This document shows positions 29,441-55,428 of a stretch of 64,000 nucleotides of DNA, piece by piece. Position numbers and translations under genes: made by a program. The stretch's first letter is position 1, and the number at the start of each line of letters is the position of its first letter. Under the pieces are notes generated by a model that was given only the letters and a program-made list of their open reading frames with translations, was not told where the DNA came from and made no database searches. The DNA is taken from the NCBI GenBank assembly GCA_016215555.1, contig JACRJC010000063.1, positions 1-64,000 on the forward strand, given 5' to 3'. Source of the DNA: Rhodospirillales bacterium. Lineage in GTDB: Bacteria > Pseudomonadota > Alphaproteobacteria > Rhodospirillales > WMHbin7.

Positions 29441-30307
29441 TTAACGCAGCGCCTCGATGACAATGCTTGAGTTCAAGTCGCCCCAGCCGCGATCCAGAAC
29501 CGTCTGGAACACCTTGCACGTCGCCTCCGAGACCGGCGTTGCCTGACCGGCTGCGGTTGATTGTCCAAGAGCGTAAACGGCGTCCTTATGCCGCCAGCGG
29601 GCGGAGAAATATACATCCTGATGATCCGCTTTGACCATGCGGGTGACAATGTATTTGACCAAAGGGCTTGCCACAGCGCCTTCCCCAAGAGCCTTGGCGA
29701 CAACGTCAAGGTCAAGTCCCAGCTTCTCGGCAACCAGCAATCCTTCGGCAGCCGCCACGGCCTGGACTGCTCCCATCATGTTGACAATCAGCTTGTAACT
29801 CGTGCCCATGCCCACCGGACCGAAATGAAATGATTTGTCACTATAGGCCGTCAAAACGGTCATGGCGTCCGTTACGGCGTCACGGTCTCCACCCAACAGC
29901 AGGGTGAGTTGTCCCGCGCGGGCTCCGTCTGGCCCGCCCGTGACCGGGCAATCAAGAAAGCGCAGACCCTTGCTTGCGGCAAGGCGATCAAGGTCAAGAA
30001 TCCAGGCGCGTGACAGGGTCGAGCTTTCCACCAGAATGGCGTTGCTCGCCATTGCCGCTTCGAGAGCGCCATTCGGTCCAAGCCAAACGGCCCTTGAAGC
30101 TTCATCATCACCAACCATCGAGATGACCATATCGCAACCGGTTGCCGCCTCCGCCGGACTTGCGGCTTGTCTGGCGCCCGCCTTTAGCAAGAAAGACAGC
30201 TTCTGCGGCGACCTGTTGTACACGGCAACCTCATGCCCTGCCTGCAGAAGCCTCAGAGCCATTTCCGCGCCCATGACGCCCGCTCCGAGAAAACCGACTT
30301 TGGCCAT
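29441..30307 (-). CDS. 3-hydroxyisobutyrate dehydrogenase family oxidoreductase
   Basis: An NAD(P)-dependent beta-hydroxyacid dehydrogenase of 288 residues. The N-terminal Rossmann motif is GFLGAGVMGAEMALRLLQAG; NRSPQK after the second strand suggests NADP preference. The family's substrate loop appears as DCPVTGGPDGARAG near residue 118 and the catalytic lysine in GTSYKLIVNMMG near residue 170. It is the last gene of the four-gene operon that starts at 34744, 27 bases after the radical SAM gene. The substrate is unknown; the relatives act on 3-hydroxyisobutyrate, tartronate semialdehyde or succinic semialdehyde. Confidence 0.85.
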   Translation of the reverse strand: MAKVGFLGAGVMGAEMALRLLQAGHEVAVYNRSPQKLSFLLKAGARQAASPAEAATGCDMVISMVGDDEASRAVWLGPNGALEAAMASNAILVESSTLSRAWILDLDRLAASKGLRFLDCPVTGGPDGARAGQLTLLLGGDRDAVTDAMTVLTAYSDKSFHFGPVGMGTSYKLIVNMMGAVQAVAAAEGLLVAEKLGLDLDVVAKALGEGAVASPLVKYIVTRMVKADHQDVYFSARWRHKDAVYALGQSTAAGQATPVSEATCKVFQTVLDRGWGDLNSSIVIEALR

Positions 30308-30334
30308 GCGTCAAACTCCCTTGTGCTGAGGGTA

Positions 30335-31822
30335 TCAACTCATGTACTGGGCGATGTAGCGCTCAGATAGCTTGCTGAAGATGTCATCACCCTCGGGAGT
30401 CAAGGCCTCGGCTTTACGTATCTCCGGCCAATCTTCCTTGGCGAATTTGACGTAGAGAGGAAACGCCCGATGCAATCCTGCCAATTCCGCAGCGCTTAGC
30501 TGTGGCATGTCCATGGATGGCCCAAGCCGGTAATCCATAGCGATTGCGTCATCGGAAATGTACCCCTCCTGCTCACAGACCTCTCGCAACGTGCACCCCT
30601 TATACGGGCTGAAGAAACTGACCATGACGCCGTTGGCCTGAATGATCCGGTTCAGTTCGATGGTCTCGAAAATCATCTCGCGTGTCTCGCTGGGAAAGCC
30701 AATAATGTTATTGGCGCTGACGCGAATGCCAGATTCGCGGAGCAGCTCAAACGCACGGATGATGACGGAATCCTGGACATTGCGGCCAAGTTTGGTCTTG
30801 CGAAGATTGAAATTGCCGCTTTCAAGCCCGACGCTGATCCCCTCGCAGCCGATCTCTTTCAACAGCTCAACCCGGTCGGGGGTAATCGATTCGGGTCTTG
30901 CTTCCACCCAAAACGGCAGGTTGACGCGCTCGCCATACAATTTTCCGAAACGTTCAATACGGCTTCTCGTCGTGGTCAGAAAGCTTTCAGCCACAAGGTA
31001 AACATAGGCTAGCTGATACTGCTCCTTCTTCTCAGCCATCTCATCCACCAAACGATCAATGTTCTGCTCCCTGTAATAGCCGCCATGGTCGCCGTAGATC
31101 TTATCGAACCCCGAATTGATGCAGAAGGTGCAGGTGTAGGGGCAGCCTCGGTTCATCTCGAACGTTCCGGTAACCGAGATGCGCCCCCCCATCGGCTTCC
31201 AGAAGCGCCGCTGATCGTAGACGGTCCAATCCTGACGCGGCAGCTTGTCGAGCTGGATCGGCGGGCGCACGGGGTTCTTATAGACTTTACCGTCCGTCTT
31301 AACCCAGATATTTCCAATATCCCTGATATCTTGGTTCTTTCTCATGCGCGCGCACAATTCAAGCAGCGCGTCCTCGCCCTCTCCAACGCAAACCATATCT
31401 ACGCTGCCCTGACGGATAACGATCTCAGGTGCGAAAGTAGCGTAGGGCCCGCCAACAATGGTGGGGATTTCCGACCCGCGCACTGCGTCCAGCAGACGAA
31501 TGCCCAGCGGATAGGTGACCTCGATAGCCGACAGACCTATCAAATGAGGCCGGTAGTCCGCCACTTGGCGCACAAAGTCTTCCACCACGTCGCTTTCCTC
31601 GGGAGTGATGCCCAGATCGGCAAAATTTGTTTTCTTAACCTGCAAGGCGCTGGCCCTTGCGTCATCGCCCGTTCGCTCTGCCGTACGATAAAAGGTCGTG
31701 TCGAACAGCTTGACGTCGATGTCCGCTTCCTTCAGGCATGCCGACAGAATGCCAATTCCAGCCGTCACCAATGTGTCCAACATGGTATTGCAGTTGATCA
31801 ACATGACGCGGAAGTCACTCAT
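30335..31822 (-). CDS. B12-binding-domain radical SAM protein
   Basis: The 495-residue protein has an N-terminal Rossmann-type cobalamin-binding domain (about residues 1-150; GGPYATFAPE and MVCVGEGEDALLELC are typical) that lacks the DxHxxG base-off motif, as in BchE-like members. The radical SAM core follows, with the 4Fe-4S motif CPYTCTFC near residue 208, ISVGLESG and IIGFPSETREM. It starts at the ATG at 31822, overlapping the upstream stop by four bases, with GGGAGAAAAAG before it. Members of this class do methylations, cyclisations or other radical chemistry under anoxic conditions. No known product-specific motif is seen. Confidence 0.88.
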   Translation of the reverse strand: MSDFRVMLINCNTMLDTLVTAGIGILSACLKEADIDVKLFDTTFYRTAERTGDDARASALQVKKTNFADLGITPEESDVVEDFVRQVADYRPHLIGLSAIEVTYPLGIRLLDAVRGSEIPTIVGGPYATFAPEIVIRQGSVDMVCVGEGEDALLELCARMRKNQDIRDIGNIWVKTDGKVYKNPVRPPIQLDKLPRQDWTVYDQRRFWKPMGGRISVTGTFEMNRGCPYTCTFCINSGFDKIYGDHGGYYREQNIDRLVDEMAEKKEQYQLAYVYLVAESFLTTTRSRIERFGKLYGERVNLPFWVEARPESITPDRVELLKEIGCEGISVGLESGNFNLRKTKLGRNVQDSVIIRAFELLRESGIRVSANNIIGFPSETREMIFETIELNRIIQANGVMVSFFSPYKGCTLREVCEQEGYISDDAIAMDYRLGPSMDMPQLSAAELAGLHRAFPLYVKFAKEDWPEIRKAEALTPEGDDIFSKLSERYIAQYMS

Positions 31823-32679
31823 TCTTTTTCTCCCTGGATGATTTGTTTGGTTTTCTGAACGAACTGGGACACCCAATCGTATCCTTCTTGGATGGCGGGG
31901 GTAATCCTATCAACGGGATATTCGAACACGATGGATGCCTCAGGACTGGCGCTTAGAACCGCCCGCAACGTGCCTTCGATATCGATCCAGCCGTCTTTTG
32001 GGCTTTGCGACGGATGCAAAGGCAGATGTCCATTTGCCTTCACATCATCAGCGCCCCGCGTGTTCCAAAGATGCATGGAGCGAGTTCTCGGGCTTAAAGT
32101 CTCGATGTCCTTCCAATAGTCCCGTTCGCGCTTTTGCGCACCTATGAAGGCGTGCCCGACGTCCAGGCAAATTCCCAGCTCCGGATGCTCGTCGATCAAT
32201 TCGGCAAAGTTGTCTGCTTTGTGAAACGAGTCCGTATAGGCGGCAAATTCAATATCAATGGGGATGCCAGAGGCTTTGCTCATGGCCGCCATTCGCGCGC
32301 CGGCCGCGGCGGCAAGTTTGCGCGCCGTCGCTTCATCCTTGCAGTCTGCCGGGCCATAGGTCAAATGGGTGACAACGTGCTGGGCTTGCCAAGAACGCGC
32401 ATATTGAAGCGTTTCAGCCAAAAGCCTGAATGAAAGCTCTCTTGCTTCCGTGTCTTCATTCATGAAAAAGCATGCGACGCCCGAATGCCAAAACCAAGCC
32501 GGGCGAGAAATCGGAGCATGGAAGCTGAAGAGATGCCGCCCTTCCTCAGCCAGCGCCTTCAAAAGCTGGCGCAGGTTTTTCAGTTCCTCGTCAGTCATGT
32601 CGAAGAATTCAACACGGCCAACCCCCCGGTGGATCAGGGATTCGGGCGGCGCCCGGTTACGTTTATCAGTTGCAGCCAT
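31819..32679 (-). CDS. Sugar phosphate isomerase/epimerase-like TIM-barrel protein
   Basis: A 286-residue protein of the xylose isomerase-like/AP-endonuclease 2 superfamily. Metal-ligand candidates are in the expected order: FSFHAP, IDIEFAAY, LGICLDVGHAF, SMHLWNTRG and IVFEYP. The N-terminus is short, so the first barrel strand is weak. It overlaps the end of the molybdopterin oxidoreductase gene by 14 bases and the start of the radical SAM gene by 4, showing tight translational coupling. Its substrate is not known; isomerase, epimerase or lyase activity would all fit the fold. Confidence 0.78.
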   Translation of the reverse strand: MAATDKRNRAPPESLIHRGVGRVEFFDMTDEELKNLRQLLKALAEEGRHLFSFHAPISRPAWFWHSGVACFFMNEDTEARELSFRLLAETLQYARSWQAQHVVTHLTYGPADCKDEATARKLAAAAGARMAAMSKASGIPIDIEFAAYTDSFHKADNFAELIDEHPELGICLDVGHAFIGAQKRERDYWKDIETLSPRTRSMHLWNTRGADDVKANGHLPLHPSQSPKDGWIDIEGTLRAVLSASPEASIVFEYPVDRITPAIQEGYDWVSQFVQKTKQIIQGEKE

Positions 32680-34744
32680 TTGGCGCCTCGATCAGGGCTT
32701 CTACTTGAACGAGATTGCTGTTGAAGGCCGAACCGCCCCCCATGTCTGCGGGAAAATCCGGCGTCGTGCAATTGGCGTTGCCCCCATCCGGATAATGCCG
32801 GCTCCACCACTGGCCTTGACTTACGACAACGCTTGGCAAAACCCCTTCGTCAATCCGCGCCCACAGAACGCAGCTTCCCCGCTCATTGAAGACCCGCACG
32901 GTCTCGTCATCGTGAATTCCCCGCTCTTTTGCATCCAAGGGATGAATTCGCAGCGTTGGGCGGTTTTCTGATGCCAGGGCGCCTGCCTTGTCCGCGTAGG
33001 CCGCATTCAGAAAAGAATGGCCCGACGGCGTGAGAAATGTGAGCGGATAACGGCTGTACAGCCCTGGCGTTGACTCGCTGCTTTCCCTGGGCGGAACATA
33101 AACCGGCAAGGGATCGACGCCATTTTCCTGCATTGACCGGGAATAGAATTCCACTTTTCCCGAAGGCGTTGGAAAACGGCCGCGCGCGAAATCTGCCTGC
33201 TCGGGATTGGGGTTAGCCGCCATCCAGCCATACTTGTCCAGCTTATCCAATGTAATGCCATGAATGGCTGGGTGATCCAGGCCCAGCAGTTCCTCGATCA
33301 CGTCCCAATCTCTTTGGAGAAAACAGGGCTCCTTGAATTCCAGAGCAGCCGCTAGCTCCTTGAACACGTCGAGATTCGACTTGCATTCACCCAAGGGTTC
33401 GATCGCCTTGCGGTTCAGCAGCAGGCTTGGACTGTAATAGGAATAAAGCAAATCCGTCTGCTCAAACTGGGAGGTTGCGGGCAGCACGATGTCGGCATAG
33501 CGCGCGGTGTCGGTGAGAAATAGTTCATGGACTACCGTGAACAGGTCTTCGCGCGACAGACCTCGACGCAGACGGTTCTGATCGTACAGAACCGAGGCTG
33601 GATTGCCGTTATAGACATAAAGGCTTTGGATATCGTCTCGCCGGCCTTCCAGCAGGCGGGCCAAATGGATCATATTGTACCCAGCCGGTGGATTAGGGCG
33701 CATTTCCTCGCCGCTCAGCGCGTGCCAATCGGCCGGGAACACCGTCGATGTCGGGAAATAGACGCCGCCACAGGGATGGCGCCACGCGCCGACAAGAGCC
33801 GGCAGGCAGGCGATTGTTCTGACCGTCATGCCGGAATTCGAGTGGCGCTGGCAACCGGGACCAATATAGATGAAGCTTGGCTTGAGATTGGCGTACAGCC
33901 TGGCGAAATCACGAATATCCCGCGACTTGATTCCCGTCAGTGTTTCAACGCGTTCGGGTGGATAGTCTTCAATGCGCTTTTCAAGCTCTTCGAACCCGAT
34001 CGTCGCCAGCTTGACGTATTCCTGATCGTAAAGCTTTTCCTTGATGATGACGTGCATGAGACCAAGCGCCAAGGCTCCGTCGCTGCCGGGCCTTGGTTGC
34101 AGAAAGATATCGCTGTTGTCGCCGGTGCGGACGGGATTGACGGCAACATGCCTCGCGCCATTTAACCGCGCCCGCTTGAAAAATGTTTGCTGATGAATGT
34201 TGGTCGATGCCGCATTCAGTCCCCAGGAAATTAATAGTTTGGCGTCATTTATATTGGTGGGATCGGCGCCAACGGAGGTTCCCATTGTGTAGCGGTACCC
34301 GGTGCGCCCCGCCTTTGTGCAAATGGTGCGAACCAGTTGCAATGTCCCCAGGCGGTTAAAGAAGCGCTTGCCCGAGATATCTCCATGAACCAGACCCTCC
34401 GTCCCTGATCCGCAGAAGGGAAGAATGGCGTGAGGAGACGATTCGCTTATGATCCTTCGCCAGCGGCGAGCGATTGTTGCAATCGCCTCGTCCCAGGAAA
34501 TGCGGTCGAACTTTCCCGATCCTTTGGGGCCGCTGCGGCGTAGGGGATAGTGCAACCGGTCGGAAGCGTACACACGTTCCTGGATATTCGTCATCTTACG
34601 ACAAAGAAAACCTTGTGTAACTGGGTGCTCGGGGTTTCCTTCAACCAGTTTTAATTTTCCGTTTTCGACATGAGACAAGATGCTGCACGTATCTGCGCAG
34701 TCGTGCGGACAAACGCTATGGACGATGGAACTCCCTGAACCCAC
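32666..34744 (-). CDS. Molybdopterin (bis-MGD) oxidoreductase of the DMSO reductase superfamily
   Basis: The 692-residue protein has an N-terminal 4Fe-4S site, C12-x3-C16-x3-C20-x27-C48 (VCPHDCADTC ... FLCRK), then the molybdopterin domains: ICTKAG near residue 142 offers a cysteine as likely Mo ligand, and the C-terminal dinucleotide-binding domain has PLTFLTPSGHSFLNAAYADK and RIHPLDAKERGIHDDETV. No twin-arginine signal is present, so it should be cytoplasmic. It belongs to the MopB_3-like group of uncharacterised oxidoreductases rather than Nap, Fdh or DMSO reductase. It is first in the operon, 74 bases downstream of an FNR-like palindrome. No separate iron-sulfur or membrane subunit is next to it. 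Confidence 0.88.
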   Translation of the reverse strand: MGSGSSIVHSVCPHDCADTCSILSHVENGKLKLVEGNPEHPVTQGFLCRKMTNIQERVYASDRLHYPLRRSGPKGSGKFDRISWDEAIATIARRWRRIISESSPHAILPFCGSGTEGLVHGDISGKRFFNRLGTLQLVRTICTKAGRTGYRYTMGTSVGADPTNINDAKLLISWGLNAASTNIHQQTFFKRARLNGARHVAVNPVRTGDNSDIFLQPRPGSDGALALGLMHVIIKEKLYDQEYVKLATIGFEELEKRIEDYPPERVETLTGIKSRDIRDFARLYANLKPSFIYIGPGCQRHSNSGMTVRTIACLPALVGAWRHPCGGVYFPTSTVFPADWHALSGEEMRPNPPAGYNMIHLARLLEGRRDDIQSLYVYNGNPASVLYDQNRLRRGLSREDLFTVVHELFLTDTARYADIVLPATSQFEQTDLLYSYYSPSLLLNRKAIEPLGECKSNLDVFKELAAALEFKEPCFLQRDWDVIEELLGLDHPAIHGITLDKLDKYGWMAANPNPEQADFARGRFPTPSGKVEFYSRSMQENGVDPLPVYVPPRESSESTPGLYSRYPLTFLTPSGHSFLNAAYADKAGALASENRPTLRIHPLDAKERGIHDDETVRVFNERGSCVLWARIDEGVLPSVVVSQGQWWSRHYPDGGNANCTTPDFPADMGGGSAFNSNLVQVEALIEAPNGCN

Positions 34745-34817: not shown

Positions 34818-34831
34818 ATGACTTTCGTCAA
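34818..34831 (-). promoter_or_regulatory. FNR/NnrR-like palindrome upstream of the molybdopterin operon
   Basis: On the minus strand the site reads TTGACGAAAGTCAT, nine of ten half-site bases matching TTGAC-N4-GTCAA. It lies 74-87 bases before the start codon at 34744. The same core occurs perfectly at 55415-55428. It implies control by a Crp/Fnr-type regulator and expression at low oxygen. Confidence 0.55.
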
Positions 34832-55414: not shown

Positions 55415-55428
55415 TTGACAAAAGTCAA
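55415..55428. promoter_or_regulatory. Perfect FNR/Dnr-type box (TTGAC-N4-GTCAA)
   Basis: TTGACAAAAGTCAA is a perfect 5-4-5 palindrome between the divergent Crp/Fnr regulator gene (starts 55281) and the hemerythrin-NIT sensor gene (starts 55524). It is the canonical operator core of Dnr/NnrR/FNR-type regulators and may serve both genes. Confidence 0.8.

Follow-up and report, generated by a model that had tools for sequence, protein, structure and literature searches.

A four-gene operon that appears to represent a previously undescribed, oxygen-independent branch of hopanoid synthesis and decoration

What might unite a molybdopterin oxidoreductase, a TIM-barrel protein, a cobalamin-type radical SAM enzyme and a dehydrogenase in one operon is the question raised by a locus on the minus strand of the window, the 64-kb stretch of DNA from a Rhodospirillales bacterium analysed here. 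The four open reading frames are Mop (34744-32666; GTG start, 692 aa), TIM (32679-31819; 286 aa), rSAM (31822-30335; ATG start, with the longest open frame running from TTG 31876) and HIB (30307-29441; 288 aa). Their tight packing, described in an earlier note on this DNA, was confirmed exactly: the coordinates agree, the first two junctions overlap by 14 and 4 bases, and 27 bases separate the last pair. The domain types proposed there also agree with the Pfam profiles: Molybdopterin and Fe4S4 in Mop, AP_endonuc_2 in TIM, B12-binding (PF02310) and Radical_SAM (PF04055), both above cut-off, in rSAM, and NAD_binding_2 and NAD_binding_11 in HIB. All four proteins scored below cut-off for every named NCBIfam family, and comparison with Pfam and NCBIfam profiles gave no known pathway, in line with the note; a description of the Mop-TIM-rSAM-HIB gene set was likewise absent from the literature found, including work on hopanoids and phosphonolipids and on BHT-x, an unusual stereoisomer of bacteriohopanetetrol (BHT) from marine anammox bacteria. 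Because a characterised close homologue was found for none of the four enzymes, the individual reactions and the product given below for the operon are those that we infer.

Mop is a Mo/W-bis-MGD oxidoreductase of the cytoplasmic type, with a single [4Fe-4S] site (C12, C16, C20, C48) and no twin-Arg signal. Its best sequence matches are acetylene hydratase and the formate dehydrogenases of the same family, acetylene hydratase (2e7z) being the closest in sequence among solved structures, at 277.7 bits to the family profile, and its probable metal ligand, Cys142, which lies in an invariant RTIC[TS] motif (16/16), is aligned with their Cys ligand. However, the Cys/Sec-His active site of formate dehydrogenases is not found, since Cys142 is followed by Thr/Ser instead of His, and Mop is without a partner subunit and falls below all curated cut-offs, including that of formate dehydrogenase alpha (TIGR01591; 266.3 vs. 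666.25). TIM is a xylose-isomerase-like barrel whose putative metal ligands (H54, H105, D112, E144, D173, H176, H203, H218, E253) are conserved and whose predicted structure (mean pLDDT 94.3) resembles a sugar 3-epimerase/isomerase (Z 20.1, rmsd 3.1, 232 aligned); its score to the cobamide remodelling phosphodiesterase CbiR (NF041277) was 39.8 against a cut-off of 105. HIB is a β-hydroxyacid dehydrogenase-fold reductase with invariant K172 and N176. Judging by its profile matches, it belongs to the wider 3-hydroxyisobutyrate dehydrogenase/tartronate semialdehyde reductase superfamily, with scores well short of both named members (TIGR01692, 149.5 vs. 291.6; TIGR01505, 156.3 vs. 340.75).

The CxxxCxxC motif of rSAM (at C227), its N-terminal B12-binding domain and its fold place it in the cobalamin-type radical SAM superfamily, cobalamin binding being predicted. 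The motif is present in 28/28 family members, which form one clade (100/99), and DxHxxG, reported as missing in the earlier note, is indeed missing in all 28. The fold gave Z scores of 22-25 to AprD4 (Z 25.3, rmsd 3.8, 412 aligned), MgmA (Z 25.0, rmsd 3.6, 376 aligned), CysS, OxsB and TsrM. The top NCBIfam match was BchE, the anaerobic Mg-protoporphyrin ester cyclase, itself a cobalamin radical SAM enzyme and the O2-independent counterpart of an oxygenase; rSAM differs from it in lying far below the cut-off (TIGR02026; 103.7 bits vs. 481.35) and in having no tetrapyrrole genes seen beside it. The score to HpnJ (TIGR03471) was below cut-off as well (101.5 bits vs. 577.6).

Expression under low oxygen had been predicted from an FNR/NnrR-type palindrome (ATGACTTTCGTCAA / TTGACGAAAGTCAT; 34818..34831, minus strand), a 9/10 match that is indeed present 73 bases upstream of the Mop GTG. 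A single such site is not special, as the window holds 11 palindromes of this quality against 4.6 expected. Its recurrence is another matter: sites of at least 9/10 lie upstream of Mop in 10 of the 14 proteobacterial loci, compared with a mean of 0.41 and a maximum of 3 in shuffles, and chance was therefore rejected as their origin. Palindromes conserved upstream across relatives, as in an FNR/NnrR-type regulon, make low-oxygen control of the operon well supported, the sites themselves being predicted.

The order Mop-TIM-rSAM-HIB is kept in 11 further MAG loci of Alpha- and Gammaproteobacteria, so that the four genes do recur as a unit in distant proteobacterial lineages, their hosts being low-oxygen bacteria. 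Mop, TIM and rSAM are also found in the planctomycete order Brocadiales, including the marine anammox genus Scalindua, and Mop and rSAM co-vary across 62 Brocadiales genomes (both in 19, rSAM only in 2, Mop only in 3, neither in 38). HIB was found in none of these 62 genomes; the core therefore consists of Mop, TIM and rSAM, and HIB is a proteobacterial accessory. The view that the four genes form one system thus holds for the recurring gene order, but not for HIB as a core member. This distribution also bears on the anaerobic route for breaking down a hydroxy- or sugar-acid suggested in the note, which we now consider highly improbable: HIB and TIM do resemble the GlxR and sugar-isomerase superfamilies, but the operon loci show no recurring transporter, kinase or aldolase, anammox autotrophs retain the core while lacking HIB, and the context is instead one of hopanoid and phosphonolipid biosynthesis. 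A glyoxylate/hydroxypyruvate (Hyi-GlxR) operon was rejected as well, as TIM matches no hydroxypyruvate isomerase model in the profile comparison and HIB lies below cut-off. Ladderane synthesis was discarded as a general role because the hosts include many Proteobacteria.

Hopanoids are bacterial sterol-like membrane lipids, and the operon is a hopanoid-associated system: squalene-hopene cyclase (SHC) and HpnH each occur in 24 of the 27 distinct host genomes, and among the Brocadiales almost every locus with a contig long enough to show it has an HpnL-like flippase gene after rSAM. The class base rates of SHC are 28% in Alphaproteobacteria (67/240) and 14% in Gammaproteobacteria (33/229). The co-occurrence can partly follow lineage, SHC being present in 4/4 genomes of one host order. 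If lineage and ecology explained it entirely, the substrate of the enzymes could be a sugar of the cell surface; some host orders do commonly have SHC, and the sister clade of rSAM (34-42% identity) sits in polysaccharide clusters with CMP-nonulosonate-type genes, where it probably acts on surface sugars. Nevertheless, no glycan-cluster genes recur around the operon loci, the class-level base rates of SHC are 14-28%, and the HpnL-like neighbour and the linkage of HpnH to PEP mutase described below stand against this explanation, which seems to us distinctly unlikely; a surface polysaccharide role is likely for the sister clade.

The phosphonate genes, which serve carbon-phosphorus head groups, encode PEP mutase (PepM), phosphonopyruvate decarboxylase (Ppd), AEP transaminase (AEPT) and cytidylyl- and CDP-alcohol phosphotransferases (NTPt, CDPPT). 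In two Alphaproteobacteria and in five members of the Brocadiales they adjoin the operon; in a further seven hosts they sit beside HpnH. PepM (391 bits, cut-off 320) and Ppd adjoin Mop in L007, the closest relative of the window, and in L008; Ppd-AEPT-NTPt-CDPPT lies immediately upstream of Mop in G548, G549, G550, G552 and G553; and NTPt-PepM-Ppd-AEPT adjoins HpnH in G289 (where AEPT was not seen in the cluster), G310, G311, G313, G314, G316 and G317. A role in glycans and lipids of the cell surface has been predicted for most bacterial clusters of the AEP type (PMC6697681), and in Roseomonas the linkage of a hopene cyclase to PEP mutase has been described in connection with an “undiscovered terpene-phosphonate” (PMC8776678). 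The operon thus shares its neighbours with bacterial AEP/CMP-AEP tailoring (Ppm-Ppd-AEPT-PntC), although none of these pathways described in the literature found includes Mop, TIM or rSAM of this kind. The same neighbours could point to head-group tailoring of a non-hopanoid phosphonate, for an ordinary phosphonolipid or phosphonoglycan, for example if rSAM carried out Fom3-like cobalamin chemistry on a CMP-phosphonate and TIM served as a phosphodiesterase. Weak matches of rSAM to the P-methyltransferases PhpK (88 bits) and Sden_1168 (45 bits), the weak match of TIM to the phosphodiesterase CbiR, and invariant TIM residues that appear to resemble an endonuclease IV-type metal set would agree with this, but all these family matches are far below cut-off, and phosphonate genes beside HpnH in seven hosts and the HpnL-like gene after rSAM speak against it, leaving it rather unlikely.

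On balance, we lean slightly towards reading the operon as a module under FNR control that tailors the polar head of C35 hopanoids independently of oxygen, because its core is conserved in hopanoid producers, FNR-type sites precede it, an HpnL-like gene neighbours it and phosphonate genes adjoin it or HpnH; the branch is probably tied to a phosphono-hopanoid. The Roseomonas precedent (PMC8776678) supports this reading, as does UbiV, an O2-independent ubiquinone enzyme encoded ~1 kb downstream of the operon in L015. It is weakened by the lack of PepM, Ppd and AEPT in the window, in the 1.50 of 2.92 Mb of its genome that were examined and in the Scalindua stretches examined, by the possible lineage effect on SHC and two host MAGs with neither SHC nor HpnH (G290, G294), by the HpnL-like proteins, which score 158-174 bits to TIGR03476 (cut-off 195.65) and belong to a general flippase family, and by the location of Scalindua Mop, mostly on a different contig from TIM-rSAM. 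The hosts carry SHC, HpnG, HpnH, HpnA and HpnN of the known HpnG/HpnH/HpnI-K-J side-chain pathway, whose radical SAM enzyme HpnJ acts on the head group of BHT; the operon differs in that rSAM is not HpnJ, hpnI and hpnK are missing, and Mop and TIM have no counterpart there. In the mechanism that we propose, the hosts would make aminoethylphosphonate (AEP) and activate it with CMP for use as a head group, and the CDP-alcohol phosphotransferase would transfer it to a hopanoid polyol. Under low oxygen the operon would then modify either the sugar-like side chain or the phosphonate head that this chain carries. A carbon of the polyol or of the head group may be the target of radical chemistry by rSAM; TIM may use a metal to isomerise, to epimerise or to cleave an ester; Mop may catalyse an O2-free hydration or two-electron redox reaction; and HIB may act as an NAD(P)H-dependent carbonyl reductase.

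To our knowledge, the enzymes for several hopanoid side-chain steps are still missing, including the conversion of ribosylhopane to BHT, the formation of BHpentol and BHhexol and the production of the marine anammox BHT isomer, and the operon offers concrete candidate genes for one of them. As a special case of hopanoid tailoring, the core could make BHT-x, with TIM isomerising the open-chain ribosyl side chain and rSAM or Mop/HIB inverting or re-reducing a carbinol to give a BHT epimer. The core occurs in Scalindua and is missing from a block of 31 other Brocadiales genomes, nearly all with SHC, the TIM fold is ketose 3-epimerase-like, and the enzyme converting ribosylhopane to BHT is not established (PMC12583986). 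The phosphonate linkage would be left unexplained, however, the literature found does not settle which stereochemistry BHT-x has, and a BHT isomer has also been reported for “Ca. Brocadia” (PMC8102298), so that we regard this case as improbable. A wider proposal, tentative and itself doubtful, is that bacteria at oxic-anoxic boundaries make phosphono-hopanoids (AEP on a C35 hopanoid), with the operon as their dedicated FNR-switched, O2-independent tailoring branch, a PhyH dioxygenase as its aerobic counterpart, and the core in marine anammox giving rise to a hopanoid of diagnostic value, for instance the BHT isomer that serves as an anammox biomarker. The operon ties hopanoids to phosphonate chemistry, earlier hinted at only by the Roseomonas linkage (PMC8776678), and predicts which organisms beyond anammox could make an “anammox” biomarker. 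If the hopanoid reading is right, a sedimentary hopanoid biomarker could reflect regulation by low oxygen and not the presence of a single organism.

Among the other neighbours, isocitrate dehydrogenase was rejected as part of the system, as it occurs in operons of Brocadiales only. In some Scalindua, hut genes sit between rSAM and the HpnL-like gene; they represent a lineage-specific insertion, and a role in histidine metabolism was rejected. Finally, a PhyH-type dioxygenase is found in the hpn or pepM cluster of several hosts, where it may carry out the corresponding step when oxygen is present.

The four minus-strand reading frames described in the earlier note, with overlaps of 14 and 4 bases and a 27-base gap, were reproduced exactly, and Pfam backed each proposed enzyme class: a Mo/W-bis-MGD oxidoreductase (Mop, 32666-34744), a TIM-barrel protein (TIM, 31819-32679), a cobalamin-type radical SAM enzyme (rSAM, 30335-31822) and a beta-hydroxyacid dehydrogenase-fold protein (HIB, 29441-30307). 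The NCBIfam search gave many superfamily matches for the four proteins and none over a curated cut-off: Mop reached 282.9 bits (cut-off 777.7), TIM 39.8 with CbiR (105), rSAM 103.7 with BchE (481.35) and 101.5 with HpnJ (577.6), and HIB 156.3 (340.75). All four are therefore placed outside the named equivalogs. The novelty of the operon lies in the combination of known superfamilies, which is undescribed and widely conserved.

Mop retains the [4Fe-4S] site CxxxCxxxCx27C in 16 of 16 family members, none of which has a twin-Arg signal. Its invariant Cys142 takes the alignment position of the Cys/Sec that binds the metal in formate dehydrogenases and acetylene hydratase, and is followed by Thr or Ser, whereas formate dehydrogenase has His there. 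In TIM, nine residues (H54, H105, D112, E144, D173, H176, H203, H218 and E253) are kept in all 26 aligned members. Sugar 3-epimerases/isomerases are the structures nearest to its predicted model (pLDDT 94.3), at Z 20.1 and rmsd 3.1 over 232 aligned residues, and endonuclease IV is likewise among the matches; such a likeness points to a shared fold and does not thereby give the reaction. As the earlier note had stated, rSAM lacks DxHxxG; this holds in 28/28 members, all with CxxxCxxC. The rSAM model (pLDDT 81.5, with lower confidence near the cluster loop) matched AprD4 (Z 25.3), MgmA (25.0), CysS, OxsB and TsrM. HIB retains the Lys/Asn typical of beta-hydroxyacid dehydrogenases.

A scan of 84,980 species identified 29 close rSAM relatives (55-84% identity), and the 28 rows used in a maximum-likelihood tree formed one clade (100/99), separate from its sister clade, which is 34-42% identical. 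The complete order Mop-TIM-rSAM-HIB was found in eleven further proteobacterial loci (L007, L008, L009, L011, L012, L015-L019 and L036), L007 being counted although it is cut in HIB; L013 and L034, the latter cut by a contig end, show Mop-TIM-rSAM. Members of the sister clade (L035, L037-L055) are encoded in surface-polysaccharide clusters that also hold genes of CMP-nonulosonate type and genes for epimerases and aminotransferases. Some of these clusters have a TIM-barrel protein of their own, and the context suggests an uncharacterised glycan radical SAM family.

Of 14 proteobacterial loci, 10 have an FNR-type site (TTGAY-N4-RTCAA, at least 9/10) within 300 bases upstream of Mop, and in five the site is perfect; dinucleotide shuffles gave a mean of 0.41 loci (maximum 3). 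In L015 the operon is followed, at a distance of about 1 kb, by the anaerobic ubiquinone gene ubiV, and genes of the ubiV sequence cluster are near the operon in L016 and L019. Because these sites recur and ubiV-type genes lie nearby, a putative anaerobic role is supported, and the kept gene order together with the sites upholds the single low-oxygen system proposed earlier. The window's sole perfect FNR/NnrR-type palindrome is at 55415-55428 (TTGACAAAAGTCAA).

Among 62 genomes of Brocadiales, the planctomycete order with the anammox Scalindua, rSAM was present in 21 and Mop in 22 (above 900 bits): 19 had both, two rSAM alone, three Mop alone and 38 neither. The positives comprise Scalindua and a lineage around RIFCSPLOWO2_12_FULL_50_35; the five single-gene genomes, small MAGs beside or inside these groups, are probably incomplete. 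A block of 31 genomes (G556-G586), which we infer to be the freshwater anammox genera, has neither gene, with squalene-hopene cyclase (SHC) in 30/31. HIB was not found in the 62 genomes at E 1e-40, in a set without a positive control, and the core is therefore taken as Mop, TIM and rSAM. A second Mop paralogue, less closely related at about 550-590 bits (e.g. G299:C20:3787-5745), is kept in most of the Brocadiales genomes that carry the operon and also in a few that lack it. TIM adjoins rSAM in every Brocadiales stretch read that has both. In Scalindua (L106-L116) Mop is mostly apart from them; its neighbours, as judged by eye from the sequence, are an M48-type peptidase gene and often also genes for a CysQ-like phosphatase and isocitrate dehydrogenase. 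In some Scalindua-type genomes genes of histidine degradation (HutU, HutI and formimidoyl-THF cyclodeaminase) directly follow rSAM (L024:3122-7465, L026:3239-5895, L154:2716-6688), in L024 lying between rSAM and an HpnL-like gene.

SHC (TIGR01507) was found in 25 of 28 host handles, or 24 of 27 distinct genomes, against base rates of 67/240 in Alphaproteobacteria and 33/229 in Gammaproteobacteria, a co-occurrence subject to lineage (one host order has four genomes, 4/4 with SHC). The hopanoid protein HpnH was present in 24/27 host genomes, and G290 and G294 are the only hosts with neither SHC nor HpnH. The Brocadiales gene after TIM-rSAM is HpnL-like (158-174 bits to TIGR03476, by far its top NCBIfam match though under the cut-off of 195.65), and this adjacency is a physical hopanoid link not subject to the lineage caveat. 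The window's own genome encodes SHC-HpnG (L145), HpnA and HpnH (L173), and HpnN.

A second link is to phosphonates. Genes for PEP mutase (PepM; 391 bits, cut-off 319.55) and phosphonopyruvate decarboxylase (Ppd) adjoin the upstream side of Mop in two loci: in L007, the window's closest relative, they diverge from it across about 127 bases, and in L008 they share its strand. Ppd, aminoethylphosphonate (AEP) transaminase (AEPT), NTP transferase (NTPt) and CDP-alcohol phosphotransferase (CDPPT) directly precede Mop in five Brocadiales genomes (G548, G549, G550, G552, G553), the fullest arrangement being Ppd - AEPT/NTPt - CDPPT - Mop - isocitrate dehydrogenase - TIM - rSAM - HpnL-like. In seven proteobacterial hosts (G289, G310, G311, G313, G314, G316, G317; loci L170, L171, L174, L175, L186, L187, L188) NTPt-PepM-Ppd(-AEPT) adjoins HpnH, often with CDPPT and HpnA; no AEPT was seen at L175, G316 is cut by a contig end, and in L188 the end falls inside PepM. 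NTPt also lies within the hpn clusters of G087, G307 and G308. The clusters beside HpnH suggest phosphono-hopanoids in general. A search of the 64-kb window and of 1.50 Mb of its 2.92-Mb genome turned up no phosphonate gene. The general idea of such a link has a precedent in a published survey, which linked hopene cyclase to PEP mutase in Roseomonas, proposed an undiscovered terpene-phosphonate and, in the portion available, made no mention of the Mop-TIM-rSAM-HIB operon (PMC8776678).

The FNR, hopanoid and phosphonate linkages are best joined if the operon performs an oxygen-independent tailoring step on the hopanoid polar head, which in many hosts would carry or coexist with AEP; any reaction assigned to the four enzymes is putative. 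With this gene context, a lipid reading displaces the sugar-acid pathway of the earlier note. Marine anammox bacteria have been reported to make a bacteriohopanetetrol (BHT) stereoisomer (PMC5516240), a testable candidate product since the core is present in Scalindua. The enzymes for ribosylhopane-to-BHT conversion and for BHpentol/hexol have been reported as unknown (PMC12583986).

In several hosts, PhyH-type dioxygenase genes occur within or next to hpn or pepM clusters (L148:12696-13454, L149:12639-13382, L163:14877-15617, L175:13310-14074, L036:20294-21031). Their products are closest to the methylphosphonate hydroxylase PhnY*, at 98-187 bits, far under its cut-off of 500, and are candidate enzymes for using O2 to hydroxylate either the side chain of the hopanoid or its phosphonate head. 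Such an enzyme could be the aerobic counterpart of the operon, a pairing for which we see a parallel in AcsF and BchE, a known pair of oxygen-dependent and oxygen-independent counterparts.
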